A stretch of 64,000 nucleotides of DNA from Agapetus fuscipes (Eukaryota > Arthropoda > Insecta > Trichoptera > Glossosomatidae). Position numbers and translations under genes: made by a program. Position 1 is the first letter of the stretch. Each line of letters begins with the position of its first letter. Below are positions 7,287-51,699 of the stretch, in pieces. The notes under the pieces are model-generated. The model made no database searches, was not told the origin of the DNA, and saw only the letters and a program-made list of their open reading frames with translations. Location: NCBI GenBank assembly GCA_951799405.1, contig OX637339.1:62001-126000 (forward strand), read 5' to 3'.

Positions 7287-7309
7287 TGGTGACGCGGGGT
7301 GACGGGGGG
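7287..7309 (+). other. Extra 23 bp between the BEL TSD and its 5' LTR
   Basis: The sequence between TAACA and the TG that starts the LTR is a garbled copy of the PPT/LTR-start boundary: it contains TGGTGACGC, GGGGTGAC and the GGGGGG run that precedes the 3' LTR. The 3' end has no such extra DNA. Confidence 0.7.
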
Positions 7310-7905
7310 TGTATGGTGACGCACAATTGAGCGTCATCTGTTTTATTTTTAATTAATTAGTCTAAGAAGCGAATTTCATGTTGGTCTTTCACAATCTGAA
7401 AAAAGTGCGGATAAAAATCGCAAGATGTCGGTATCAACTTTTTTGACATCTGAGCAACGTGAGATTAGCAAGAATTGAAGACTTCCATTTCCGTCGTGTT
7501 CGCAAGTAGACACGTTTTTATATGTCTCTCGACCGATTTGAAATTTATCCGTAACAACCTGTGAGTGAGTGTGATTGTTTTACATATAACTTGCAAGTGT
7601 GGCAGTTTGTGAACAGAGCTCAGCACCACAGGATCCTGAGAAAACGAGCATCATCTTGGACCAGCAGAGCACAATTTGAGGTGAGTGGCGGTCCTTTTGA
7701 TTTTCGCTTCTTTGGTACGGGAAAGTCGTCCAAAATTGAAAGCCACCTATTGAAGGTTGGCTTTTGTTTGAGAGAGAAAATACCATAGGCATTAGATCTG
7801 TGTATTTTATATCTCGCATTGGAGAATACGTTGCAGTTTCTCCATTTGTTGTTTTTTTGTATTTATATACCCCCTGAGGGGCAAAACTTACACCTTGCCC
7901 CTTCA
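7310..7905 (+). repeat. BEL 5' LTR
   Basis: Starts TGTATGGTGACGC and ends CCCCTTCA, so it has TG...CA ends. The same sequence recurs at 21240-21836. The short open frames inside it on both strands are not genes. Confidence 0.95.
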
Positions 7906-8470: not shown

Positions 8471-8547
8471 ATGGCGGATGCTTTAACAAGAACTTTGGTT
8501 ATATTGAAAGAGAAACAAAAGGTTTATTTTGAAAGAATAAATAATTT
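8471..8547 (+). pseudogene. BEL Gag, first 25 codons (cut by the gypsy insertion)
   Basis: An ATG in a good context (AAACATGGCG) opens a frame that runs into the gypsy LTR. The same frame resumes after the second copy of the ATTT target site at 15825, so this is the 5' piece of the Gag reading frame. The interruption removes any chance of a normal Gag from this copy. Confidence 0.85.
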
Positions 8548-9021
8548 TGTTACGAAATTAGGGTTCAATTGTCTTCAAATTAAAAATACATAGGTCTTCT
8601 TCAATAGTTATTTATTTTACACAGTTACAAAATTTATTTTCACACTACTTTCTCGATTATTCCACTTGGTTTTGGTTCACTGATCAGATGACTTCGATGT
8701 GTTTGTAAGTCTCTATGATACTGGCCCGCTCTGCAGGCCATTCGCACCTTTATACTCTTCAGAGCAGTATGATCCAGAACTAAAGTCGCCAGACGGTTCC
8801 AGAGTAATTATTACTTCTCGACGCTTCACGTACTACCTAGAGATACAACCAAAATCCTACCTACAAATGTAACACAGTATTCCTATAATTATAACAAATA
8901 CCTACTTAGCCTAGAGAATTCTACACTTATACATAATTATCGATCTTACCTACCAATACTTTTGAGGATTCTTATAACTATAACTACCCATACTTATTTC
9001 AATATTTATATTTACATAACA
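8548..9021 (-). repeat. Gypsy 3' LTR
   Basis: On the minus strand it starts TGTTATGTAAATA and ends TTTCGTAACA. Same length and, as far as I can read, same sequence as 15347-15820. Related solo LTRs lie at 51059-51547, 37189-37618 and 47932-48347. Confidence 0.95.
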
Positions 9022-9033
9022 CTACCCCCCACC
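9022..9033 (-). promoter_or_regulatory. Gypsy polypurine tract overlapping the Pol stop
   Basis: GGTGGGGGGTAG on the minus strand directly touches the 3' LTR. It is the expected plus-strand primer. The same bases encode the last Gly residues and the TAG stop of Pol, so the coding region runs right up to the LTR. Confidence 0.85.
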
Positions 9034-12000
9034 TAGACTGTTTCGTCCCGGAACAGTCTTGACTCTGTGTAGGTAGGGGCATGCTGATCCACGTCGACAC
9101 CCTGTGGTCAGGAAGAAGTGGCAGTCCACGGATTTCTCCCCACTGGCTCTCGGCTGCGCTTGCTCGCAGCACACCTTGACGCTGATGCCGACTCCCGAGA
9201 ACACTGCTTCAATCATACTCCGGATTATCCGCCAGTCTCGATTAGCGCGGCCGCCACCCATCTTCGGTATTGCCAGACGCGCCTGCTGATCCTCCAACAT
9301 GTAGTCACGCAGCTCAACAAGGCCGTCCCACAATGCCTTGTAGTCCTCTTCCAGGTTGCTGGAATCCGGGACAACCAGGCAGTATGCTTGTTGACGCCCC
9401 TTCGGTAGTCTCAGAGCTCTTCCTTGCGGGCTGCTCGAGGGTTGCGGTTCTCCGAATTTGTATCGGAAGACCCGTGCAATTCCTCTAGACATATCTAGAT
9501 CTTCCGGTACACTGCATGCCAGTGTGTGGTCCCTAGTGACCTCAAATAAGTCCTTGTGGACTTCTGTGGTCACTCCATGGCGAAACTTCTGCCCTGCCTT
9601 CGCGTTCTCCCAAAACGTCTCAAAGGCTGGTGATCTTTCGGATGCGACGCACTGTCGTACTTTTTGGGCTGGTTGGTCATCATTATCGCCTAGGTATGGT
9701 GAGAGGCGATTGTAGTGCACGACCCTTGGTTTTCCGTTTGGTCTTTTTTTTATGCGGTAGACCACATCGTTGATGCGCTCCAAGATCTCGTACGGCCCGT
9801 CCCAGGAACGCTGAAGTTTCGGACAGTATCCTTGGCGCCTCTTGGGGTCAAAAAGCCACACCCAGTCACCAGCTTTGTACCCCATGCTGTCAGCTCTGGT
9901 GTCATAGCGCTCCTTCATTTGATCGCTGGCTTCCCCGATGTTCATGCGGACCTGATCATGGATGTCATCCAGCCTCCTGCGAAGGTCTGTCACATAGTCT
10001 TCTCCGGCTAGGTCTTCACCTGGTTTGCAGCCAAATTTGAGATCACAAGGAAGTCGCATTTCTCGCCCAAACAGTATGCTGCTGGGAGTCTTCTTCGTCG
10101 TTTCCTGAACAGCCGACCGGTAAGCCAATAAGAACAAAGGCAGATGTTGGTCCCAGTCCCGCTGATGGCTGGACACTACTTTGGCTAAGTACCTCCCCAC
10201 GGTACGGTTCATCCTTTCCACCATTCCATCAGACTGTGGATGTAGCGCAGTGGTCCTGGTCTTGTAGATCCCTAGCCGCTCACACATTTGCTGGAAGATA
10301 GCAGCTTCAAAGTTCCTTCCCTGATCAGAATGTAATTCCAGGGGTACGCCAAACCTGCTGATAAATTCGGTAACTAGAACTTCAGTCACGGTTACGGCCT
10401 CTTGGTTAGGGATTGAGTAAGCTTCCACCCACTTGCTGAAGTAATCCATCACCACCATGATGTACTTGTTACCCTTCTCAGTTGTAGGAAATGGGCCAGC
10501 TATGTCGATGGCAATTCTTTCAAAGGGGCTGCCAACATTGTACTGACGCATTGGTGCTCGCCTTTTCCTTTGCGGTCCATTGGCCGTTGCACAGGTTACA
10601 CATTTTCGACACCAATCTTTGACGTCTTCGCTGCAGTTGATCCAGTAAAATCGCTCTTTCACTTTCTCCAGCGTCTTCTTAACGCCTAGATGTCCTCCAG
10701 AAGTTCCTCCATGCAGCAGTCCAAGGATTTCCGGTACTCGGCTCCTCGGAACGAGGGTTTGCTTTCTTCTAAGTGTGCCGTCTTCCTTCTCGATCTTTCG
10801 TTTCAGAAACCCTCCTTCTATCACTATGGATCCCCATTGAGCCCAATAAGCCTTGACAGTTGGTGATAAGGGGGCGAGTTTTTCCCAGGTTGGCCTTTCT
10901 CCTTCTCGCGCCCATTCCATCACATACTTCAAGTCCGGATCATTCAGTTGGTCTTGCGCCAATTTTTCATCTTGCCAGTCCTCATCTTCGGTGGTCGTCC
11001 TTTGGACAATTGCTACCTTGTCCTCCATCTTGCTGCAATGTTTGCAGTCACTGGCGCATGGTCGTCTGGATAATGCATCCGCATTTCGATGAAGCGTGCC
11101 AGGTCTATGTTCGGAGTCATAATCATACTCCTGGAGCCTTTCAATCCATCTAGCCACTTCTGGGTTTTTGAATTTCAGAAGCCAAACCAGTGCAGCATGA
11201 TCAGTCCGTAGTGTGAATTTTCTCCCGTACAAGTATTTGCGGAAGTGTTCCACTGATTTTATCACGGCAAGAAGCTCTCGTCTGGTCACGCAATAATTTC
11301 GTTCTGGCTTGGAAAGCACTTTACTGAAGTAACCCAGAACAGTCTCATGCCCATCCTGTATTTGGGAAAGGACGCCTCCTATCCCCACATTACTAGCGTC
11401 GGTATCCAGGATGAACTTTCCATCTTTTCGTGGGTAGCTCAAGATGGGGGCACTTGTTAATCTTCCCTTAAGCTCTTCAAATGCTTGTGCGCAGGAATCA
11501 CTCCAATGGAAGCGAGTGTTTTCTTCCGTAAGCTTGGTTAGCGGTTTTGCAATGTCCGCAAATCTTGGCACAAACCTCCTGTAATAAGTGCACAGCCCCA
11601 GGAAACTCCTAGTTTCATGTTTGTCCTTCAGCACGGGCCAGTCTCTTACTGCCTTGATTTTGGCAGGGTCAACTTCAACTCCACGTTGAGAAACTATGTG
11701 TCCCAGGTAATTTACTTGTTTCTTGAACAGGTTACACTTTTTCGGGTTGAGCTTCAGTCCAGCGTCTTGTAGTCGCCCGAAAACTTGCTCCAGATTTCTC
11801 AACTGATGGTTGAAGTCCTTTCCCAGGATGATTATGTCATCCAAGTATACCAGGCAGGTTTCCCATGATAGTCCTCGCAGCACATTCTCCATCAGCCTTT
11901 CAAACGTGGCGGGGGCATTGCATAAGCCAAATGGCATCACGGTGAACTGCCAAAGTCCAGATCCAGTCGAGAATGCAGTTTTCTCCTTATCTTTGGCATC

Positions 12001-13158
12001 CAATTCAACTTGCCAGTAGCCACTTTTCAGGTCCAATGTGGAAAAAATGGTGCATCCTGCCAATGTGTCCAAGGTGTCGTCAATCCTTGGCAGAGGGTAA
12101 CTATCCTTTTTCGTAACATCTTTGAGCAGTCTGTAGTCCACACAAAATCTCGTAGTACCATCCTTCTTTTTCACCAGTACCACCGGGGATGTCCAAGGGC
12201 TACTTGATGGTTCTATGATGCCATCCTTGCTCATGTCTTTGATGATCTTGTCAGCTTCTTCCCGCTTTGCAAAGGGTAGTCTTCTTGGAGCCTGTTTTAT
12301 TGGTCTCGCTTCTCCGGTGTCTATGCTATGTCGCACTACCTTGGTTCTTCCCAGACGGCCATTAGAGTCCTCGAAAATGTTCTGGTAGCGGCAGATCAAA
12401 CTCCTCACTCTCCGCTTGTTTTCCTCGGTTAGACCTTGGGAAGCGTCGTGGACCAGGGCTTCCAATTGTGTTGACAATTTGTTTCCTTCGCATGACATGT
12501 TTGTCATCTGTTGCACAATGGAAGTTATCCTCTCACATCTGCCCAAAACAAAACCTTCATTCATTTTAACTGGGTAGCTGTTCACATTCATGATCTTGAC
12601 AGGAATGGTCTCCTTTGCGCGAATCACTGTTCTTGCCACCATGACTCCTTTGTTAACATTGTCCATGTTCTCCGGTTCTATCATACAGATTTGGTCATTT
12701 GTACTACTGGAATCCAGGCGGGCACTCACTATCATCTCGGATCGCCCCTTCACTTCGGTATTCTTGGCTAGGATAACACGTGCAGCCAGTTCTTTCCGTC
12801 TTTGCAGGATGACTTCTTCATTTCCAATTTTAATGGACCCTTTCTTTAAATTTAAACTGCACCCAAATCTGTCCAGTATGTCCATTCCCAATATAACGTC
12901 TTCTTCAATGTTGGCCACCAACGTCCGATGATCAAAAGTGGTGCTGCCAATTTGGAAGGTGGCAATCGTCTCCCCATACACCTGTGCTGACTCTCCCGTG
13001 GCGGTGTGCAGAGACCACTTTGTTGGTGCAATCTGCTTACCTCGTGCCACTATGTCGCGTCTCAGAATTGTCCTGGTTGCTCCCGTGTCCACCAGTAGTT
13101 CACGAGTTACTCCATCTATTATGCCATTGATAAAAATGCTGCTGGCTTTTCCTCTCAC
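9022..13158 (-). CDS. Gypsy Pol: protease-RT-RNase H-integrase with macro domain and CCCH finger
   Basis: 1,378 residues without a break. Protease DTGA at Asp24; RT with FCVDYR (338-343) and YLDD (438-441); RNase H Asp587, Glu628 and Asp653; integrase zinc site (His816, His823, Cys853, Cys856) and D,D35E triad at Asp885, Asp945 and Glu981; a GPY/F-like module around 1115-1156. Residues 1195-1331 then read as a macro domain and 1346-1364 as a CCCH zinc finger, an addition not part of standard Ty3/gypsy Pol. The first listed codon is GTG; the frame is open for 16 more codons upstream, to a stop near 13200. Gag ends at 13233 in another frame and the two frames do not overlap, so how Pol is translated (internal start, splicing, reinitiation) is unclear. 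Confidence 0.95.
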   Translation of the reverse strand: MRGKASSIFINGIIDGVTRELLVDTGATRTILRRDIVARGKQIAPTKWSLHTATGESAQVYGETIATFQIGSTTFDHRTLVANIEEDVILGMDILDRFGCSLNLKKGSIKIGNEEVILQRRKELAARVILAKNTEVKGRSEMIVSARLDSSSTNDQICMIEPENMDNVNKGVMVARTVIRAKETIPVKIMNVNSYPVKMNEGFVLGRCERITSIVQQMTNMSCEGNKLSTQLEALVHDASQGLTEENKRRVRSLICRYQNIFEDSNGRLGRTKVVRHSIDTGEARPIKQAPRRLPFAKREEADKIIKDMSKDGIIEPSSSPWTSPVVLVKKKDGTTRFCVDYRLLKDVTKKDSYPLPRIDDTLDTLAGCTIFSTLDLKSGYWQVELDAKDKEKTAFSTGSGLWQFTVMPFGLCNAPATFERLMENVLRGLSWETCLVYLDDIIILGKDFNHQLRNLEQVFGRLQDAGLKLNPKKCNLFKKQVNYLGHIVSQRGVEVDPAKIKAVRDWPVLKDKHETRSFLGLCTYYRRFVPRFADIAKPLTKLTEENTRFHWSDSCAQAFEELKGRLTSAPILSYPRKDGKFILDTDASNVGIGGVLSQIQDGHETVLGYFSKVLSKPERNYCVTRRELLAVIKSVEHFRKYLYGRKFTLRTDHAALVWLLKFKNPEVARWIERLQEYDYDSEHRPGTLHRNADALSRRPCASDCKHCSKMEDKVAIVQRTTTEDEDWQDEKLAQDQLNDPDLKYVMEWAREGERPTWEKLAPLSPTVKAYWAQWGSIVIEGGFLKRKIEKEDGTLRRKQTLVPRSRVPEILGLLHGGTSGGHLGVKKTLEKVKERFYWINCSEDVKDWCRKCVTCATANGPQRKRRAPMRQYNVGSPFERIAIDIAGPFPTTEKGNKYIMVVMDYFSKWVEAYSIPNQEAVTVTEVLVTEFISRFGVPLELHSDQGRNFEAAIFQQMCERLGIYKTRTTALHPQSDGMVERMNRTVGRYLAKVVSSHQRDWDQHLPLFLLAYRSAVQETTKKTPSSILFGREMRLPCDLKFGCKPGEDLAGEDYVTDLRRRLDDIHDQVRMNIGEASDQMKERYDTRADSMGYKAGDWVWLFDPKRRQGYCPKLQRSWDGPYEILERINDVVYRIKKRPNGKPRVVHYNRLSPYLGDNDDQPAQKVRQCVASERSPAFETFWENAKAGQKFRHGVTTEVHKDLFEVTRDHTLACSVPEDLDMSRGIARVFRYKFGEPQPSSSPQGRALRLPKGRQQAYCLVVPDSSNLEEDYKALWDGLVELRDYMLEDQQARLAIPKMGGGRANRDWRIIRSMIEAVFSGVGISVKVCCEQAQPRASGEKSVDCHFFLTTGCRRGSACPYLHRVKTVPGRNSLGGG
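9067..9123 (-). other. CCCH zinc finger at the Pol C-terminus
   Basis: Cys1346-x7-Cys1354-x5-Cys1360-x3-His1364, reading CHFFLTTGCRRGSACPYLH. This is the CCCH class, usually RNA-binding, with one residue less than the commonest C-x8-C spacing. It lies just after the macro-like domain and 14 residues before the end. Confidence 0.8.
9166..9576 (-). other. Macro (ADP-ribose-binding) domain in gypsy Pol
   Basis: Pol residues about 1195-1331. Landmarks in macro-domain order: KDLFEVTRDHTLACSVPEDL (the GDLF...LAHCVS-type first strand and loop), DMSRGIARVFRYKFG (the phosphate-loop region before the KFG helix), QQAYCLVVP strand, DYKALWDGLVELRDYM helix, LAIPKMGGG (the A-x-P-x-I-G-x-G second binding loop), WRIIRSMIEAVF helix, ISVKV final strand. 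The order fits the OARD1/Poa1 branch best. The Lys and Asp that do catalysis in OARD1 do not seem to be kept (the Asp site after GGG reads R-A-N), so binding without hydrolysis is the likelier activity. Fold assignment is from motif reading only. Confidence 0.8.
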
Positions 13159-13232: not shown

Positions 13233-14678
13233 CTAGTTTTCCGCAGCCTGTTTTCTGGGTTTCTGAGGCTTGGGACACTTGGTGCTAAGGTGGCCCAGCT
13301 GTCCGCAGTTCCAGCAGCGTGGGTCTCGTCTTCGAGGTCTCAGACGTTCCAGCACTTTTTCAATTAGCTCCTCGGTTGTAGGTAGCTTGACCTCCTCTGC
13401 CTCGACTGCACGAACCCTGGCGTGGCCCCTGATGGACTGTTTGACAGCCTCAAACTCGAGAGCTTGGCTGAGCGCCTCGTTCAAAGCCTTGGGATGGGCC
13501 AGTTTTACGGCTTGTTGCGTCTCCCATTCCCGCAATCCATTTAGGAACTTGTCCACTGCCAAGCTCTCACAGATGTCGTCGGAGGCTGTCGGGTAAGCGT
13601 CTCGTACCAGGCGGGCGATGTCCATTTCAAACTCCTGGAGGCTCTCGTTGGGCTTCTGCACCCTTGTGTTCAGCTGCGACTTGTACAGCTGCTCCAGGCA
13701 CTTGTGGCCATAGCGCATATCCAAGCGCTGCTTCAGCTGCCCAAAGTCACCACGGTTGTCCAGGGGTATGGCCTGCAGAACCCTGAGAGCGTCTCCTCGG
13801 AGCGACAGGCTGAGAACCGAAGCCTTCTTCTGCTGGCTCCAGGCTCCCATCATGGCAGCCGTTTCAAAGAGGGTCAAATACTCCTCCCACGACGTCTTCC
13901 CGTCGAAGGTCGGGAGGTTGTGCTTCGCCAGCGAAGGGTCATCATCCCCTCTAGTGACCCTGGTTGGAGTTGAGCATCCCTGGTCGGTCTCGTCGTGAAG
14001 GCCTTTGGGGGATATTCTGGTGGACTCCATCTGGCCCTTGTCGGCCAGCTCGGCACGCAGATGTACCTCCAGATTTGACATCCGAGTCTCCATTTCCCCC
14101 TTCAGGGCTGTCATCTTCTCCTCCATTTCTCCCTTCAGGGTTGTGAGATTCTCGTTCATCTTCTCTTTCATGTTGGCGAGGTCTTCCTGCAGGGCCTTGG
14201 CGTTTTCAGCCATCTCCACTTTCAGGTCGGTCACCACTTCCTTCAGGTTGGTGGTCATCTTCTCCTCCAGCCCGGTCAGGTCCTCCTTCAGGGTCTTGGC
14301 GTTGTCAGCCATCTTCTCCTCCAGCCCGGTCAGGTCCTCCTTCACGGTCTTGGCGTTGTCAGCCATCTTCTCCTCCAGGGTCTTGGCGTTGTCAGCCATC
14401 TCCACTTTCAGGGTCTTGGCGTTGTCAGCCATCTCCCCTTTCAGCTTTTCCTCCATGGAAGTGAAGTTTCCGGTGATGCTGAGGTTTAGCTCGTCCAAGG
14501 CGCGGTCCCCTCCAGACGCCATGACAAAATATGCCGGGTCTTCGCCTGACTGTTCTAAGGCCTCCATGAGGCGTGCCTGTAAGGCCGCCTTCCCTCCTGA
14601 GGTCTCCAGGTCCCTCTCCAGAAGCTCATTTTTAAGCTCAGTGACTTTGAGGTCCTTGATGTTCACTTTGGTTGCCAT
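13233..14678 (-). CDS. Gypsy Gag: SAP domain, coiled-coil repeats, capsid, CCHC knuckle
   Basis: 481 residues from an ATG at 14678. Residues about 5-40 (LKVTELKNELLERDLETSGG) form a SAP-type DNA-binding helix pair, unusual at a Gag N-terminus. Residues about 73-205 are imperfect 18-36 residue repeats built on EEKMADNAKTLKEDLTGL, predicted to be one long coiled coil. A retrotransposon capsid-type region follows (about 250-410, DGKTSWEEYLTLFE then ESLQEFEMDIARLV). Cys455-x2-Cys458-x4-His463-x4-Cys468 is a single zinc knuckle for RNA packaging. The stop TAG is 75 bp before the first listed Pol codon. Confidence 0.93.
   Translation of the reverse strand: MATKVNIKDLKVTELKNELLERDLETSGGKAALQARLMEALEQSGEDPAYFVMASGGDRALDELNLSITGNFTSMEEKLKGEMADNAKTLKVEMADNAKTLEEKMADNAKTVKEDLTGLEEKMADNAKTLKEDLTGLEEKMTTNLKEVVTDLKVEMAENAKALQEDLANMKEKMNENLTTLKGEMEEKMTALKGEMETRMSNLEVHLRAELADKGQMESTRISPKGLHDETDQGCSTPTRVTRGDDDPSLAKHNLPTFDGKTSWEEYLTLFETAAMMGAWSQQKKASVLSLSLRGDALRVLQAIPLDNRGDFGQLKQRLDMRYGHKCLEQLYKSQLNTRVQKPNESLQEFEMDIARLVRDAYPTASDDICESLAVDKFLNGLREWETQQAVKLAHPKALNEALSQALEFEAVKQSIRGHARVRAVEAEEVKLPTTEELIEKVLERLRPRRRDPRCWNCGQLGHLSTKCPKPQKPRKQAAEN
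14260..14440 (-). repeat. In-frame tandem repeats in gypsy gag
   Basis: Near-exact 36-60 bp units containing GGTCTTGGCGTTGTCAGCCA recur at least four times and encode the MADNAKTLK repeats of the Gag coiled coil. High unit identity means recent expansion or homogenisation, and copies may differ in repeat number. Confidence 0.8.
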
Positions 14679-15346: not shown

Positions 15347-15820
15347 TGTTACGAAATTAGGGTTCAATTGTCTTCAAATTAAAAATACATAGGTCTTCTT
15401 CAATAGTTATTTATTTTACACAGTTACAAAATTTATTTTCACACTACTTTCTCGATTATTCCACTTGGTTTTGGTTCACTGATCAGATGACTTCGATGTG
15501 TTTGTAAGTCTCTATGATACTGGCCCGCTCTGCAGGCCATTCGCACCTTTATACTCTTCAGAGCAGTATGATCCAGAACTAAAGTCGCCAGACGGTTCCA
15601 GAGTAATTATTACTTCTCGACGCTTCACGTACTACCTAGAGATACAACCAAAATCCTACCTACAAATGTAACACAGTATTCCTATAATTATAACAAATAC
15701 CTACTTAGCCTAGAGAATTCTACACTTATACATAATTATCGATCTTACCTACCAATACTTTTGAGGATTCTTATAACTATAACTACCCATACTTATTTCA
15801 ATATTTATATTTACATAACA
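15347..15820 (-). repeat. Gypsy 5' LTR
   Basis: Reads the same as 8548-9021 throughout. Should hold the element's own promoter, on the minus strand and so in the same direction as the host gene. Confidence 0.95.
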
Positions 15821-15824
15821 ATTT

Positions 15825-17541
15825 ATATAAACTAGGAAAAAATGTTTCTAATTTTGCATCCAGAGAGAATAGTAATTTTTTATCGGTTTCCAAGGAAGCA
15901 GGAAGCTGGGTTAAAAAGTACGAAGATTTGATAGATCAAATAAATGCACTTTCTTTAGAGATAGACCCAGAGGCAAAGGTAAATTATCAATCACTTATGG
16001 CCTTTGAAGAACTTTATAGTAAAATAATGGATGTTAGGGAAAGAATTTTAAAAACCGAAACACCACATGTATCGACTCAAAGTGGGCCTAGATATGAGGT
16101 GAAATTACCACCCATACAAATTCCTTTGTTTGATGGGAATCCAAAAAATTGGTCACGATTTTTTGAATCCTTTAAGGCAAACGTCCATCTAAATACAGGG
16201 TTGTCAGACGCCCAAAGAGTGCAATATTTAACAGGCAACTTGACGGGAAAGGCAGCGAACATATTTTCGGGAATTGTACCGTCAGCGGAAACCTATAACG
16301 TGGTCTGGGACAGTCTTGTTAAAAAATATCAGGATGAACGTGCGCTAGGAACATATTACATAAATAATATCCTTGATTTAAAGAAGGCCGATCACACGGC
16401 TGCCGGTCTTGATGCCTTTATTGAGAAGTATGCCGCTTCCATTGCAGCATTAAAACAATTAGGTATTGCAGATGTGGGAGATTTTCTTTTATTTAATTGC
16501 GCTTTGCGTAAATTGAATTCGTCTACAGTTATGGCCTTCGAGCTTTCGCTGAAAGACATTGAAATACCTTCTTGTCAGAATCTTATCAGTTTTGTTCAAC
16601 AACAGGTCAAAATTTTGGAAAGATCGCACGTAAATGAATCGAAGTCGGTTTCCGAAGCTTGCCATTCGAATACACGCGTGAGGAATAATACGACAAAATC
16701 TGTGAGTGGTCGTGCGTTTCTCGCAAGTGGTAGAGTGTATACTGGGGACACTCTCTTTTGCGTTTTGTGTAAACGAAACGACCATAATAAATTACATAAA
16801 TGTGTGAAATTTAAGAGCTATTCTCCTAAGGAAAGGTATGAATTTATTAAATCAAAACGGGGTTGCGTTCGTTGTTTGAGTGTTGCCCACTGGTCTCATT
16901 GTACTGAGACAGGAACTTGTCAAATTTGTAATAAGGGACATCATACCCTTCTGCATTTTGACGACAATGAGAATAAGGCCAGACGAGTAGTCAAGAATGC
17001 TGAGCAGGGACATCAGCTGTCGCATTCAGGTGATGATATGCAAGGGTTGGGTGTGCCCTCGGTTTCTTTAAGTGCAAATGCTCGGGTGAATGCGAGCACG
17101 GTGCTGTTGGCATGGTCAAATTGCAAGAAAAATAAGATGATAGTGAGATGTCTTGTTGATAATGGTTCTCAAAACCATTTGATAACATTAGAATGTTGTA
17201 GAAATATGAATTTACATATTGTTCCTCTAAATAATTCAGTAATTAGAGGAATCGGTCTTTCTGCACGACCGATACATGGATGTGTCAATTTTGAAATACA
17301 ATCGAGGTACAATCCTCAAAATACTTACAAGGTTAACGCGTTAGTGGTGGATCAGATCACGGATCAGTTACCTTCTAGGTACATTGATAACAGTGATATG
17401 ACTTATTTAAAGGACATTTCAATGGCCGATTTATCCTGGAATGTCCCTGGAGTTGTGGACATTGTGTTGGGTGCACAATTATTCCCTTTTATTTATTTGG
17501 GAAAAATGAGTCAAAGTCGAAAGCGCCACCTGCAGTATTGA
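15825..17541 (+). pseudogene. BEL Gag and protease, main part
   Basis: The frame continues from the 5' Gag piece across the gypsy site. In order: a Gag capsid-like DUF1759-type region (PIQIPLFDGNPKNWSRFFE, about 15,930-16,400 at DNA level), Cys/His knuckles (CVRCLSVAHWSHC and CQICNKGHHTLLHF near 16,865-16,965), then a DUF1758-type aspartic protease with LVDNGSQ at about 17,155. The frame ends at a TGA at 17539, inside the protease/linker region, while the next frame (-1) carries on with family-typical sequence. Known role: virus-like particle shell and its processing enzyme. Broken by the gypsy insertion and by the frame change. Confidence 0.9.
17499..17505 (+). other. GGGAAAA: slippery heptamer or one-base deletion point
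   Basis: In the Gag frame the codons read TTG GGA AAA, so G GGA AAA fits the X XXY YYZ rule for -1 frameshifting. A -1 slip here moves directly into the frame of the RT. A single lost A from the A-run would give the same picture. Confidence 0.5.
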
Positions 17542-19412
17542 CGTCCTTTGGCTATGTATTGATGGGAGATTGTCCAAAGAGTGTTTCAGCTGCAGACAGT
17601 TGTCACGAATCTTTTTCTGCATTGGCTGTAAAAGATGCGGATTTATTATTACACAAGTTCTGGGAGTTGGAAGAAATCCCAGTGAAAAAGTTCTTAAGTC
17701 CAGATGAGACAGCGTGCGAAAACTCATTTGTATCTTCTGTGACTAAAGACGAGGTAGGTCGTTACTCTGTTGCTCTACCCTTTTGTGCTGATCCTGAAAA
17801 TTTGGGCAACTCACGAAATACTGCATATCGGCGTTTCTTGTTATTAGAAAGAAAGTTTAAGCAGTTACCGAGTCTGCAGGAGAATTATAATTCGGTAATA
17901 AATGACTACATTCAAAAAGGATATCTCTCTAAAGTGGCAGAGTCAGATATTGGTGAACATGGATATTATATTCCTCACCACGCTGTAGTGCGTCAAGACA
18001 AACCTATGCCTCGCATTGTTTTAGATGCTAGTGCGAAAACGCATACTGGGTTGTCACTCAATGACGTACTACATTCTGGGCCAAATTTACAGGCTGATTT
18101 GTTTCTCCTTTTATTAGATTTTAGGCTGTTTCCTGTCGCAATGACAGCAGATGTACAGCAGATGTATTTGCAGGTTGGTGTATTTGTTGACCACCGTAGA
18201 TATTTGAGAATATTATTTCGTTTTTCTGAAAAGGAGAAAGTTCGAACCTTTCAATTTAATAGGGTTCCATTTGGATTAAAGTGTAGTCCTTTCTTGGCCA
18301 TGCGATCTGTGCGTCAGTTGGCATCGGACATGGCTGAACGTTTTCCGGAAGCCGCCAAAGTAGCTGGAGCTAGGTTTTATATGGATGACCTGGTTCAGTC
18401 TGTGGCAGATGAGGCGTCGGCTGTTTCTCTGGCAAAAGATCTCGTAGCTTTGTTCAAGTATGGTGGCATGGATCTGGTAAAATGGTCAAGCAATTCATCT
18501 TATCTATTAGATAGTCTTCCTAACTCACATAGAGGTTCCATAAAATTTGATGATGATAAAGGCGTAACTTTAAAAGTATTAGGGTTGTCTTGGGATCCAG
18601 TTAAGGATAATTTCTTCTTTACTTCGAATGACTCTCAGCAAAAATGCACGAAGCGATCTATTTTGTCAGTTGTAGCTCGTTTGTTCGATGTTTTGGGCTT
18701 AGTCGCACCAGTTATACTGGCTGCAAAGCTTCTCATCAAAGAGCTATGGCGTGCCAATATCGGTTGGGATGACTCTCCGCCTAATGCTATAATTCGACGT
18801 TTTTCGAGTATAACACAAGAACTTCCGTTGCTCGCTACTTTAAAAATTCCTAGGCACATCGGTGTGACTAGCTCAACCAAAGTATTATTAGTAGGTTTTT
18901 GTGATGCTAGTCTGAATGGTTACGGTTGTGTTATATATGTACATACAACTGACATGGATGGAAATATTTCTGTCAGGTTGTTGTGCTCAAAATCTAAGGT
19001 ATCTCCCACCAAGATTACGACATTAGCACGTTTAGAGTTGTGCGCTGCTGTTTTATTGTCAAAGATGTTAAAACTTGTGATCGAGATGTATCGTGATCAG
19101 ATTCATATAACTGATGTATATGCTTTTTCTGATTCAACGATTGCGCTGGCTTGGATTTGCTCTTCTCCACATCGTTGGTCAATTTTTGTAGGAAATAGAG
19201 TCGCTCAGTGTCAGGAGAATTTACCCCCTCAGAACTTTTACCACATCTCAGGGGACGAGAACCCAAGTGACTGTGTTTCACGTGGTATGTTACCATCTCA
19301 ATTAATTTCTCATAGTTTATGGTGGAATGGTCCACTGTGGCTTCAACGCCCTTCGGATGAATGGCCGATTCAAAGATTCTCCTCGTCCGATGCGTTAGAA
19401 ATTCCTGAATAG
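17538..19412 (+). pseudogene. BEL reverse transcriptase and RNase H
   Basis: 624 residues in the -1 frame relative to Gag. Contains the end of the protease-linker (FGYVLMGDCP), the Pao-type RT with MTADVQQMYLQV and FYMDDLV as catalytic blocks, the Pao-specific A17-like region (KVLGLSWDP, DVLGLVAPV, AKLLIKELW) and an RNase H start (FCDASLNGYG, LARLELCAA). The first ATG is not expected to be the natural start because BEL Pol is normally made as part of a long polyprotein. The TAG at 19410-19412 is premature: the same frame stays open and family-like for about 50 codons after it. Confidence 0.9.
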
Positions 19413-19546
19413 GCAACTGTACTGACAGCCATGGTAGTACATGTCGACTCTATGATTTTATATGACTTAGCACAACGAACTTCTTCGTGGAATAAATTAA
19501 TTCGAATTACAGTTTACATTCTTCGCTTTATAAATAAATTGAATGC
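19413..19546 (+). pseudogene. BEL linker between RNase H and integrase, broken
   Basis: After the TAG the RT frame stays open to a TAA near 19569, but the integrase frame starts at 19547 in another register. A small deletion or indel here is likely. Confidence 0.6.
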
Positions 19547-20896
19547 ATGTCCCATGCTGAAGTTAAGTTAATACAGACAATACAAACTGTTCATTTCTCG
19601 GACGACATTAAGTTGATAAAAGATAACAAGTTACCATCGAAAAAACTGCGTAATTTATCGGTTTTTCTGGATCAGGAAGGTACGTTACGAGTTGGAGGTC
19701 GGCTTTCACGGTCTGATTTACCCTTTGAAGCTAGACATCCAGCTTTACTTCCGAAACATGACTCAGTGGTGAACTTAATAATTAAACATTTTCACGAATC
19801 CAACTGTCATACCGGTCCAGGACTTTTGATGTCTATCATACGACAAAGGTTTTGGATATTGGATGCCAGAACCGTTATACGAGCACAAACTCGTAAATGC
19901 AATATTTGCTTCCGAGTGAACCCGTCGCACCCTACGCCAAAGATGGCGGACTTGCCTGCCTGTCGCATAACAGAAGCTAAAGCATTTGTGCATACGGGGG
20001 TAGATTATGCTGGGCCTTTAAAAATACTTCTTACGCGACGACGCGGACAACATGCTCAAAAGGCATATATCTGCCTGTTTGTTTGTCTAGTGACCAAGGC
20101 TGTGCATATTGAGCTCGCAACTGATCTGTCGAGTGCCTGTTTTATAGCTGGATTTAAGCGTTTTATCTCTCGTCGTGGGCCAGTTTCCTTTATGTATTCG
20201 GACAATGGCACAAATTTTGTTGGGGCTCGTGCCCAATTAGATGAGATATATAATCTTTTACAAAATTCACAGCATAATGTCCGAATGAAGCGAGAACTTG
20301 AGGCGTATAAAATAGAGTGGAAAATGATTCCCCCTCGAGCTCCTCACTTTGGAGCTTTATGGGAATCAAATATTAAGAGTTTGAAAACTCATCTGTATCG
20401 AGTGATAGGGAATCAGTTGCTCACATATGAGGAGATGCAAACGGTGTTGACTCAAATCGAGAGTATCATGAATTCTAGACCACTAAGTGTCATCAGTTCT
20501 GATCCTCACCCTGACGTTATAACTCCTGCGCATTTCTTGATGTCCACTCCCTTAAAACATCTGCCTGCTTCTGAGCTACCTGACACACCAGTTAATCTCA
20601 CTCAGCGTAAAAATCTCCTGGATCAAATAGTGTCATCTTACTGGAAGCGATGGAGGGTAGAATACCTGCACACTTTGCAGGTCAGACAAAAATGGCAAAC
20701 CGATGTTAATGCAATTCAGGTAGGGACTGTTGTACTGATTGGGCAAGAGGACGCTCCTCCTTTGTCCTGGCCTCTGGGAATCATCACCAAAGTTTTCCCT
20801 GGGGATGATGGCGTGATTCGAGTAGCCACAGTAAAGACTGAGCAAGGTTTTTACAAACGTCCGGTCGTCAAACTCTACCCATTGCCGACACAATAG
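19547..20896 (+). pseudogene. BEL integrase with DUF5641-like C-terminus
   Basis: 449 residues open from 19547. Begins with the typical HFSDDIK and FLDQEGTLRVGGRLS block, then a zinc-binding H-H-C-C region (FHESNCHTGPG, RKCNIC), the catalytic core (HTGVDYAGPL, YSDNGTNFVGA, FGALWESNIK supplying the D, D, E residues) and a C-terminal domain (YWKRWRVEYLHTLQVRQKW to KRPVVKLYPLP). Intact within itself, but cut off from the RT by the lesions upstream, so it would not be made as part of Pol from this copy. Confidence 0.9.
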
Positions 20897-21239
20897 ATTA
20901 CTATTTAATTTCGTCTTCTGAGTTAGTAGATCTCTACCATTGTACATATTTACCATGTTTAGAATTAATCTTATGCTTTACTACTAAGCTTATCTGTTAG
21001 AACATGTTAAATCTAGCTTATTATATTGGCTTAAGTATTTTTGTGTCTAACCTGCTTACTTGTAGGCATACTTATTATATTAATTATATTAAGTTTCTCT
21101 AGTTTAAGATTTTCAAACATTGATTGTAATTATACCTATATATCATTTCTCGAATATTGTTTGTAAAAATCGACATGGTTTCTTTGAATATCTGGTTTGT
21201 GTTGCAAAGCTTTTAACTTTAAGTCTTTGCAAAGGGGGG
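20897..21239 (+). other. BEL 3' untranslated region with polypurine tract
   Basis: AT-rich, non-coding; ends in AAAGGGGGG (21231-21239) immediately before the 3' LTR, the expected PPT. Confidence 0.8.
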
Positions 21240-21836
21240 TGTATGGTGACGCACAATTGAGCGTCATCTGTTTTATTTTTTAATTAATTAGTCTAAGAAG
21301 CGAATTTCATGTTGGTCTTTCACAATCTGAAAAAAGTGCGGATAAAAATCGCAAGATGTCGGTATCAACTTTTTTGACATCTGAGCAACGTGAGATTAGC
21401 AAGAATTGAAGACTTCCATTTCCGTCGTGTTCGCAAGTAGACACGTTTTTATATGTCTCTCGACCGATTTGAAATTTATCCGTAACAACCTGTGAGTGAG
21501 TGTGATTGTTTTACATATAACTTGCAAGTGTGGCAGTTTGTGAACAGAGCTCAGCACCACAGGATCCTGAGAAAACGAGCATCATCTTGGACCAGCAGAG
21601 CACAATTTGAGGTGAGTGGCGGTCCTTTTGATTTTCGCTTCTTTGGTACGGGAAAGTCGTCCAAAATTGAAAGCCACCTATTGAAGGTTGGCTTTTGTTT
21701 GAGAGAGAAAATACCATAGGCATTAGATCTGTGTATTTTATATCTCGCATTGGAGAATACGTTGCAGTTTCTCCATTTGTTGTTTTTTTGTATTTATATA
21801 CCCCCTGAGGGGCAAAACTTACACCTTGCCCCTTCA
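21240..21836 (+). repeat. BEL 3' LTR
   Basis: Matches 7310-7905 except one extra T in the T-run near the start. Followed by TAACA, the target-site duplication. Its end is only 127 bp from the donor-side end of a host exon. Confidence 0.95.
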
Positions 21837-21963
21837 TAACACATGAAAATATGTTGCTGCTGACATTAAAATATCTGTGAAGAAAATGTCTACTCCATTT
21901 GAGGACGGAAAGCGTGTTAACTTCCATTATCAAAAAGTGTGTAAAAGTAAAGCTACTACATAC

Positions 21964-22622
21964 CTCGACATAGTCATACAGGCAGTCCTTCTGGTACTCC
22001 ATATCTATCTTGGAGAACTGCACCACCAGCCTGGAGTTCTCCGGCCCCACCAGCTTCACCACGTAGTCCAGATTGTTGGGATAGTTCGCCGGATAGTTAG
22101 GAGACGTGATCCATCCTTCTGTATCGTTCACAGTCCTGTTGAGCTTGACATTGGGATCAGTGAAGAGACTTTTCCTCTTGCAAACGTAGCCTCCAACATG
22201 CGAGCATTTCTGAGAAGTCCAATATAGTCCACTAGGTAGAGTTCTATCATCTGGCGTCATCCATTGGATTCCTAAGCAGGTCGGGTTCAGAGGATCTGGC
22301 AGTTCGAGGATGTCCATTTCTTCAGGGCGTTGTCCATTTAACCAGCCGGAGAAGGTGACTCTGGTGCCGTCCGTCCAGTCATATCTCCCCAGGCCAGAGA
22401 TCTTGGCTCCCAGCCAGTAGATGGCGCTGTTGGAATACTCGCTGCTGGTGCGGATGGAGTGCGAGATGAAGAGCTCCTCTTGCTGGGAGAGCACGGAGGC
22501 CAGCTGCGCGCGCGCGCCCTGGCAGATCTGCTGCGCCGTGTGCCAGGTCACCTCCGGGTAGCTGACAATGAGGTAGCAGGACTCGTTGAAGAGCTTCTGG
22601 CGATCGTCGGAGCATTCCATGG
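21964..22622 (-). CDS. Host gene exon: C-type lectin-like domain and start of CUB 2
   Basis: Acceptor TTGTTCCAG above 22622; donor GAG/GTATGT below 21964. It joins the upstream exon through a split Ala codon, giving LTMEN-AMECSDDRQ. About 150 residues form a C-type lectin fold with the expected cysteines (ECS, SCY, QIC, TCLG, KCSH, YVC) and a WLGA core. Neither the EPN/QPD nor the WND sugar-binding motif is clear (GQRPEEM and LYWTSQKC in their places), so calcium-dependent sugar binding is doubtful. A CUB half follows: GWITSPNYPANYPNNLDY, then DMEYQKDCLYDYVE. The frame stays open through the donor into the intron and the BEL LTR, which is chance. Confidence 0.95.
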
Positions 22623-23119
22623 CTGGAACAAAATGAAACAAAATATTTTTAAATTGTCTTTCAAATGAATTTAAAATGAACAGACGTGATACTTATCTCT
22701 TCAAAGGTTTTCAGACATTTGTTGTGAATAACGGAGCATTACTGCCTTCGTGAATTTATGATATTGTGAAATGTCTAGTAACTGTGTAGTTTAATTCAAT
22801 ATTTCAAGCCTAAGGACCAGTTACTAAAAATATAAGAGTTACAAAGAAATACCTCGTTGAATCCTAACTCACACCATCAACGTTTCAAAGTTCTAAAAAG
22901 CTCAACAAATTGGTTTCTTTATCTGACTACAAGTTGTTAGTTGAGTTTTTCATTTTATCTGGAAGATATCTGTCAAAAAGTTATGTGGTTTTTGTTTCTT
23001 TTACACCACTTATTTATTTTAAAATAAGAGAAAGTATTTGTAAGATTATTTCTTCCATTAATCATATAATGACTGTTACATTTCCAAAACTGAAAGAAAC
23101 AAAGCTTTATGTGATGAAA
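22623..23119. other. Intronic sequence without recognised features
   Basis: AT-rich; I see nothing in it. Confidence 0.4.
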
Positions 23120-23427
23120 GGGTAGAAAGACTGGTAGACTGGTCGCGTCGCAACCAATTAGTGGAGCAATGCGTTGTAGTGCCGCGTGTGGCAGTAATAT
23201 GTTACACTTACATGCTGGGACGTGAAGGCAGGTCTGCTGGTTGTCAGGGCGCGCTGTCGCAGCCATTAATCTCTATCCTGTATTATGGGAGGATTAGCTG
23301 TGATGTGGCTTATAGACTTTCTGATGTAATGTGTTTGTTGCCTCACAGAGAATGTAATAGCAAAGAGAACGCACAATGTAACCCTGTAACGTTAATGACA
23401 ATTAGCAATGTGATGTGAAATAATATG
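23120..23427. repeat. Diverged extra unit of the 23.1-24.2 kb tandem repeat
   Basis: Shares AATTAGTGGAGCAATGCG, TAATATGTTACACT and GATGTGGCTTATAGACTTTC with 23580-23740, but more diverged. It sits directly upstream of the 740-bp repeat and is absent before the second copy. Confidence 0.65.
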
Positions 23428-24167
23428 TACGCTATAATTATAATATAGACATTTAATAGAAGTGGGCCAAGATGAGAGCCCTGAAGTACACAACAAGATG
23501 ATGGGACTTACACATGTAATATTCGTTGTTTATAATGAAGTAATAGTGAAAATCAGATAATAAAAGAGTAAAAGGAATGGTAGAGTGGACGTGTCGGAAG
23601 CAATTAGTAGAGCGATGCTTTGCAGTGTTGTGTGTGGCAATAATATGTTACACTGGCATACAAGGGTCTCTATCCTTTATGGAGAGATTAGATGTGATGT
23701 GGCTTATAGACTTTCAAATGATGTATACTTTGTGACCTAATAGAGAAATATGATAGAGAAGAGAGCGCATAATAAAAGTGGAGAGGTAATGGAATATGAG
23801 TCAATTAGTAGAATAATGCGATTTAGCATAGCTAGTCAGCAGAAAGCGTAGATTTTACATTTTTGTAAGAACGTTCTAAATAAAATAAAGGCGTTAAATG
23901 GTGATTGGCCAAGATGAGAGCCTTGAGGTACACCAGACAGTGATTTGGGTTTTAAGCCATAAAATAAAAGTGATAAAATAAAATACGTAATGAAACGCTA
24001 GAAAGAAATGATGGTTTGTTAGTGTAGCATCTATTAGTAGAATGTTCCTTTGTAGACCTCACGTTAAGAATTTTTATCTCCACTTTATCTTCCAAACCAA
24101 TACCTTTGCAGGTTCGAGAAATCCAACCTATAGAATGTGTGATGTTTATAATAAGAGCTTTTCGCAG
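23428..24167. repeat. 740-bp direct repeat, copy 1
   Basis: Appears identical over 740 bp to 32619-33358. Inside are two related sub-units, each with GGCCAAGATGAGAGCC. The reverse strand of the second reads GGTGTACCTCAAGGCTCTCA, a good match to the GVPQGS motif of LINE reverse transcriptases, so the unit may be built from a LINE fragment. No open frame survives. Confidence 0.85.
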
Positions 24168-32590: not shown

Positions 32591-32618
32591 TCTGATATAT
32601 ATTCTGATCTGATATATA

Positions 32619-33358
32619 TACGCTATAATTATAATATAGACATTTAATAGAAGTGGGCCAAGATGAGAGCCCTGAAGTACACAACAAGATGATGGGACTT
32701 ACACATGTAATATTCGTTGTTTATAATGAAGTAATAGTGAAAATCAGATAATAAAAGAGTAAAAGGAATGGTAGAGTGGACGTGTCGGAAGCAATTAGTA
32801 GAGCGATGCTTTGCAGTGTTGTGTGTGGCAATAATATGTTACACTGGCATACAAGGGTCTCTATCCTTTATGGAGAGATTAGATGTGATGTGGCTTATAG
32901 ACTTTCAAATGATGTATACTTTGTGACCTAATAGAGAAATATGATAGAGAAGAGAGCGCATAATAAAAGTGGAGAGGTAATGGAATATGAGTCAATTAGT
33001 AGAATAATGCGATTTAGCATAGCTAGTCAGCAGAAAGCGTAGATTTTACATTTTTGTAAGAACGTTCTAAATAAAATAAAGGCGTTAAATGGTGATTGGC
33101 CAAGATGAGAGCCTTGAGGTACACCAGACAGTGATTTGGGTTTTAAGCCATAAAATAAAAGTGATAAAATAAAATACGTAATGAAACGCTAGAAAGAAAT
33201 GATGGTTTGTTAGTGTAGCATCTATTAGTAGAATGTTCCTTTGTAGACCTCACGTTAAGAATTTTTATCTCCACTTTATCTTCCAAACCAATACCTTTGC
33301 AGGTTCGAGAAATCCAACCTATAGAATGTGTGATGTTTATAATAAGAGCTTTTCGCAG
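32619..33358. repeat. 740-bp direct repeat, copy 2
   Basis: Appears identical to 23428-24167; the flanks differ on both sides (ATATA before, GGGTTTCGTGG after). Confidence 0.85.
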
Positions 33359-48962: not shown

Positions 48963-49477
48963 AAATGCCAACAACACGCGGTGTACCTGAGCGGTAGCCC
49001 ATCGAGGTAGCATCCGCGCCCAATGTTGCTAAACTTCGGTGATCTGATGAGAACCGGTGCTTTCAACATGGTATAGTCTTTGACATAAATCCGAATTCTA
49101 ATATCCAAATATTTGATTAAGTGTGTAGTTATTATAATTGTTCATATTTTAATATTATCATTCCTACTCAGAATTCACATTATTTGTTGTAAATCCACTT
49201 ATCGTGTTTGTCATTACCTCCTCGGCGCCATATTTATGGAGCCTGAACCTCACTGAGGGTCCGAGATTGCCCGAAAATGACCTCCGAACACGTGCCTTGA
49301 ATTTGTAGTAACTAAACCTAACGGGACGGAAATTATTTTTCAGGGGGACCAGAACGGTGACATTTTAAAAAGCTAATTTCATCTAAATCTGAATAGAGGC
49401 ATCTATCATATGGGGTGGAAAGTTTTTGCATTTAAAATCCACAATCACATCAAAATGAAAAATATTAAGTCCGGTCA
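48963..49477. other. Intronic sequence without recognised features
   Basis: Nothing recognised. Confidence 0.4.
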
Positions 49478-51058: not shown

Positions 51059-51547
51059 TGTTATGTAAATATGAAATATAAATATTTAAATAAGTATGGG
51101 TAGTTATAGTTATAAGAATCCTCATAAGTATTGGTGGGTAGGATCGATAATTGTGTATAAGTGGAGAATTCTCTAGGCATAGTAGGTATTTTTTATAATT
51201 ATAGGAATTCTGTATTGTATTGGTGGGTAGGATTGATGGTTGTGTGTACATGGAGAAGTCTCTAGGTATTTCGAGAAGTATCAAGCAAAAAATATATTCC
51301 GGAGTATTCGATTCCCTTAGTATATAAGACTCTTATTGCTTGCACTGAGTTCAGTTATTATTTCAAGCTCTCACCACTACAGTCTCCTGCCAGCTTTACA
51401 ATACAACTTGATCAGTGAACAGAAACCAAGTGGAATAGTCGAGAAAGCTTTGTGAAAATAAATTATTTAAAAGTGTAAAATAAACAACTGTATAAGAAGA
51501 CCTGTGTATTTTAATTTGAAAGACTTTTGAACCCTAATTTCGTAACA
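51059..51547 (+). repeat. Solo LTR of the gypsy family, TSD ATAC
   Basis: Starts TGTTATGTAAATATGAAAT and ends GAACCCTAATTTCGTAACA; TSD ATAC at 51055-51058 and 51548-51551. Close to the LTR of the intact macro-domain element over long stretches (GGTAGTTATAGTTATAAGAA), with some insertions. Shows that this family has a history in the lineage. Confidence 0.93.
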
Positions 51548-51699
51548 ATACGTCCTCGCTGACAGATTATCTAACATTTTGAGTATTTTCCGAGCTTTGA
51601 TGCGGTATATTCACTAAGTATTAAGCCCTCTCTACTCGCCTCTGAAAGCTCTCGCATTGATTGATAGCTTAATCTGGTTGTGCGGAAAGCTCAGCTGGT

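Follow-up and report, generated by a model that had tools for sequence, protein, structure and literature searches.

Why would a retrotransposon carry a macro domain behind its integrase, and can that domain still act on ADP-ribose? The question is raised by a complete Ty3/gypsy long terminal repeat (LTR) retrotransposon on the minus strand of a 64,000-nt stretch of the Agapetus fuscipes genome (OX637339.1, positions 62,001 to 126,000), which we refer to as the window. A first-pass annotation had described one unbroken 1,378-residue Pol frame that continues past the integrase module, and we find it so, with the stop codon abutting the 3′ LTR. It had also placed a macro domain and a CCCH zinc finger in this extension, and both identifications hold. 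Beyond that annotation, we find that the macro domain is of the TARG1 (ALC1-like) type, that it is common to a family of insect elements and that the window copy has lost the catalytic dyad. We propose, with a probability of about one half, that an insect Ty3/gypsy lineage keeps a host-derived TARG1-type macro domain behind its integrase, which would be an eraser in most members and, in the window lineage, a binder without TARG1-type cleavage that tethers the integrase.

The TARG1-type macro domain and its finger

9172..9570, minus strand: TARG1-type macro domain, Pol residues 1197-1329, identified by sequence and fold
9367..9369, minus strand: codon at the TARG1 Lys84 position, here proline (Pol residue 1264; place derived from the residue number)
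9244..9246, minus strand: codon at the TARG1 Asp125 position, here alanine (Pol residue 1305; place derived from the residue number)
9067..9123, minus strand: CCCH zinc finger, Pol residues 1346-1364

TARG1 was the best match of the window macro domain both by sequence and by fold, and a macro fold was predicted for it with good confidence. The Pfam Macro model found no match on the window Pol, and the identification therefore rests on the TARG1-specific sequence and on the fold; among the NCBIfam models only DarG matched, with a score of 23.8 bits where the cut-off is 250. The CCCH finger is complete, with the spacing C-x7-9-C-x5-C-x3-H, although its Pfam score exceeds the cut-off only when the Pol tail is scanned by itself, and it is weakly similar to the fingers of CPSF30 (E 0.004).

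Human TARG1 (OARD1, C6orf130), an ALC1-like macrodomain and terminal ADP-ribose glycohydrolase, shares with the window domain its fold, its motif order and its adenosine- and pyrophosphate-side residues. Unlike TARG1, the window domain is fused behind a retroelement integrase, and Lys84, Asp125 and the other distal-ribose positions are replaced; its relatives in the family, like TARG1, keep Lys84 and Asp125. Chromoviruses are Ty3/gypsy elements with an integrase C-terminal chromodomain, and they resemble the window element in that the C-terminal module of the integrase in Pol is followed by a fold of the chromatin-reader type. However, the domain scan of the window Pol listed no chromodomain at E values up to 1; the macro domain occupies the place behind the integrase, and the targeting of sites is here only proposed. 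To our knowledge, few host-derived modules apart from chromodomains occur on LTR-retrotransposon integrases.

Macro folds on selfish agents are also found in alphavirus nsP3 and rubella virus, whose domains we take to be MacroD-type, unlike the TARG1-type domain of the window. Seadornaviruses come nearer, in that Banna virus VP5 (P0052, residues 440-572) has a TARG1-type macro domain in which both catalytic residues are present, and the best viral fold match of the window domain in BFVD was a Kadipiro virus protein.

A family of integrase-macro fusions in insect elements

A search with the window sequence returned P0002, a protein labelled Erysiphe pulchra on a small contig that is perhaps insect contamination of that record, and a second search returned P0003, a near-copy of the window tail (98% identical). 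Searching with the P0002 macro region gave 51 proteins, P0002 included, which were aligned together with P0003, the window and TARG1. The 52 database rows comprise 24 element proteins (P0003 counted among them), 27 proteins without Pol domains and Banna virus VP5, with element status assigned by Pol domains in database listings, Pfam and local searches. Named sources of the elements are Aromia, Callosobruchus, the sawfly Athalia and Erysiphe pulchra (twice), on contigs of up to 1 Mb (Aromia) and 17.8 Mb (Athalia). The 27 TARG1-like proteins, mostly named from insects (Tribolium, Acyrthosiphon, Cryptotermes and Schistocerca among them), are the nearest non-element macro relatives among the rows compared. 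They differ from the elements in having no integrase or reverse transcriptase (RT) match in any row (Pfam checked on six), and in none does the CCCH pattern follow the macro domain.

In a midpoint-rooted macro tree, 19 element rows including the window separate from all others (95/95). Of this group's 18 database members, 17 have the macro domain behind the integrase, the eighteenth being the fragment P0003, which begins within the last 19 residues of the integrase. Among these 17 are four Aromia genes that are nearly identical to one another. Six further element rows were placed among host rows, mostly without resolution, and carry the domain behind the integrase (P0038), before the RT or integrase (P0039, P0043, P0053) or between RNase H and integrase (P0045, P0046). 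P0038 and P0039 are sisters by integrase and RT, yet have the macro domain at opposite ends. Because the domain sits at three positions in Pol, repeated capture or relocation is suggested; a single capture of all 25 element macro domains was not rejected (approximately unbiased test, p 0.21).

The CCCH pattern follows the macro domain in 13 of 19 group rows, in none of the six outliers and in none of the 28 other rows. It is absent from P0016-P0019 and P0022, and P0013 ends before the finger position. Since the RT tree joins the window to the finger-less P0016-P0019 and P0022 (97/98), the history of the finger is not simple. Searching viral and prokaryotic contigs with an alignment of the window, P0002 and P0003 yielded no confirmed relative, three of the four patterns lying outside the macro domain.

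Among the matches listed from the open-access literature we found no description of gypsy or other LTR elements with a macro domain; the search reached few subscription papers, preprints or repeat databases, and the lineage may already be catalogued there. Fusions of TRADD-N immune genes to retrotransposons, reported in PMC8195603, are a different case, and the accessible portion of PMC12992720 mentions neither a macro domain nor ADP-ribosylation.

The ADP-ribose pocket and the possible role of the domain

In TARG1, Lys84 attacks C1″ of the distal ribose and Asp125 resolves the intermediate, as described in PMC6397177, which also supplied the pocket positions compared here. The equivalent positions hold Lys and Asp in all 51 other matches, and Pro and Ala in the window and P0003. 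The relatives were gathered with P0002, which keeps the dyad, and searches with the window sequence gave only P0002 and P0003, so further dyad-less members may have been missed. We then counted near-invariant columns, defined as the same in at least 16 of the 17 other group members. Of 48 such columns the window retains 32, divided into 6/6 on the adenosine and pyrophosphate side, 0/6 on the distal-ribose side and 26/36 elsewhere (Fisher p 6.5e-4 for the distal-ribose set, a post hoc value since the test was picked after the dyad loss was seen). Family members vary at three more listed pocket positions (47, 121 and 122), which were left out of the count. Judged from the aligned residues, the half of the pocket responsible for catalysis and distal-ribose contact is replaced, and the adenosine/pyrophosphate half, with the putative contacts expected of an ALC1-like reader, is kept.

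We suggest that the macro domain was captured from a host gene, fused behind the integrase and retained; as the first-pass annotation had supposed, capture is the simplest origin because the domain is of cellular type. In most members it would be a working mono-ADP-ribose eraser at the integrase's site of action, and ADP-ribosylated integrase, histones, cDNA ends, the integration complex and target chromatin would be its possible targets in those that keep the dyad. TARG1 itself accepts mono-ADP-ribosylated proteins, O-acyl-ADP-ribose and ADP-ribose on nucleic-acid ends, and is able to free entire chains (PMC7050489). For the window lineage, binding of ADP-ribose, or of a related nucleotide end, without TARG1-type cleavage is the most likely activity; it is also the simplest reading, because the adenosine and phosphate side appears whole. 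The position behind the integrase suggests that it may tether the integrase to PARP-marked chromatin or complexes. The earlier proposal that the module reads or counters ADP-ribosylation thus divides, in that removal is the less likely half for the window element because both TARG1 catalytic residues are lost, and is plausible for its relatives; that the window domain affects ADP-ribosylation, particles or site choice is something we infer. More tentatively, a captured eraser could have become an integrase-fused ADP-ribose reader steering integration to sites that PARP has marked (broken DNA or active chromatin), with sister lineages keeping the eraser and stripping PARP marks from integration complexes, and with gypsy Pols acquiring TARG1-type domains repeatedly, at three locations.

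Several observations weigh against a binder that tethers the integrase. The ALC1-like hydrolases described in PMC7050489 include DarG, which lacks one dyad residue, and SCO6735, which lacks both, so a missing dyad is no proof of inactivity. The apparent loss of distal-ribose contacts may also weaken the binding of ADP-ribose. The window macro domain evolves fast, its 15 distances (least 0.554) exceeding those of all other pairs (most 0.546), with similar mean integrase distances (0.310 for the window and 0.305). Finally, PARP is only weakly linked to insect elements. In flies mutant for parp-1, 8 mobile elements changed significantly, five up and three down, and ten more rose non-significantly, nine of them of the gypsy superfamily; the authors accept that the cause may be indirect (PMC7712786).

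Fast evolution could mean that the domain, useful in an ancestor, is a degenerating passenger being lost in the window lineage, which we consider rather unlikely. The dyad is lost, and under a fixed topology the window macro branch measures 1.25 changes per site against 0.26 for the integrase, a ratio of 4.8 compared with 1.9-3.8 in the six other members with integrase branches above 0.1 (0 to 5.6 in the nine with shorter integrase branches, and likewise among all 15 others). However, the losses cluster in the distal pocket with the adenosine/pyrophosphate positions intact, the CCCH finger is complete and a macro fold is still confidently predicted. The frame is also open, although about 9 nonsense changes would be expected on the macro branch under neutrality, or about 5 if that branch is taken as 0.7, and none is observed (P about 1e-4 and about 5e-3, both rough). 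The pocket pattern and the stop-free frame on so long a branch argue for a change of function over simple decay, although constraint may be partly relaxed.

It is unlikely that the window domain is still a hydrolase that counters PARP-type defence by a route other than the Lys/Asp dyad, as in SCO6735, given that all six distal-ribose positions, beyond the dyad, differ from the family. Somewhat more doubtful still is a structural or nucleic-acid-binding spacer in which the macro domain and finger bind the element's own nucleic acid, RNA or DNA, and ADP-ribose plays no role. One solved macro domain structure contains RNA (3gpq) and the weakly CPSF30-like finger occurs in most of the group, but the adenosine/pyrophosphate positions are kept and the five finger-less members retain the TARG1 dyad. 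Several relatives are gene predictions, and P0002 has Gag behind its finger, as might be expected if the fusion came from a faulty gene model or from read-through of a neighbouring cellular gene. We regard such an artefact as hardly credible, because the window frame runs unbroken to the LTR and the integrase-macro order recurs in 17 proteins, drawn from the sources ncbi, lgn and ena. The same two facts led us to reject read-through or a chance open frame.

If a TARG1-type domain is common to insect gypsy elements, ADP-ribosylation would be linked directly to retrotransposition. The natural pairs of eraser-like and catalytically emptied members, as the tethering proposal would have them, offer a test of whether PARP signals restrict or guide integration.

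The element and its surroundings

15347..15820, minus strand: 5′ LTR, 474 bp, identical in sequence to the other LTR
8548..9021, minus strand: 3′ LTR, 474 bp, identical to the 5′ LTR
8544..8547, with a second copy at 15821-15824, no strand: target-site duplication ATTT, on both flanks
13233..14678, minus strand: Gag open reading frame (ORF), 481 aa, with SAP domain, Retrotrans_gag, CCHC knuckle and a repetitive stretch
9022..13158, minus strand: Pol ORF, 1,378 aa, frame open from 13203, TAG stop abutting the 3′ LTR
12868..13131, minus strand: aspartic protease, motif VDTGAT intact
11692..12174, minus strand: RT, motif YLDD intact
11125..11505, minus strand: RNase H
9697..10752, minus strand: integrase, with H2C2 zinc domain, rve core and p58 C-terminal (GPY/F-like) module

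The order protease-RT-RNase H-integrase is that of Ty3/gypsy, as are the 4-bp target duplication and the TG..CA ends of the LTRs (TGTTAC...ATAACA on the plus strand). A candidate primer-binding site, TGGCGTCAGGTGCGG, starts two bases within the 5′ LTR (found by eye; no tRNA assigned). In Gag the SAP domain is N-terminal, and a 45-nt unit is repeated eight times at 14095-14445; SAP is listed for two Aromia genes of the macro family (P0011, P0012) as well. Because the LTRs are identical and the frames open, the insertion is young. Diverged LTR pieces of a related element (about 86-90% identical) lie at 51070-51549 on the minus strand.

The gypsy element sits between two copies of a direct repeat of about 603 bp (7304-7905 and 21234-21836, 99.8% identical) that flank BEL/Pao-type ORFs (15928-20896, plus strand), and so seems to be nested inside another young element, of BEL/Pao type, for which we looked for a target duplication and found none. 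An ORF at 21511-22641 on the minus strand, with a C-type lectin and a partial CUB match, runs into the repeat at 21234-21836 and may be a gene into which the BEL/Pao element inserted. Elsewhere the window holds a 745-bp direct repeat (23423-24167 and 32614-33358, 99.9% identical), a 5S rRNA match of 78 bits (48966-49084, minus strand) and an ORF at 216-1337 on the minus strand with Baculo_FP_2nd and a weak RING-like match.
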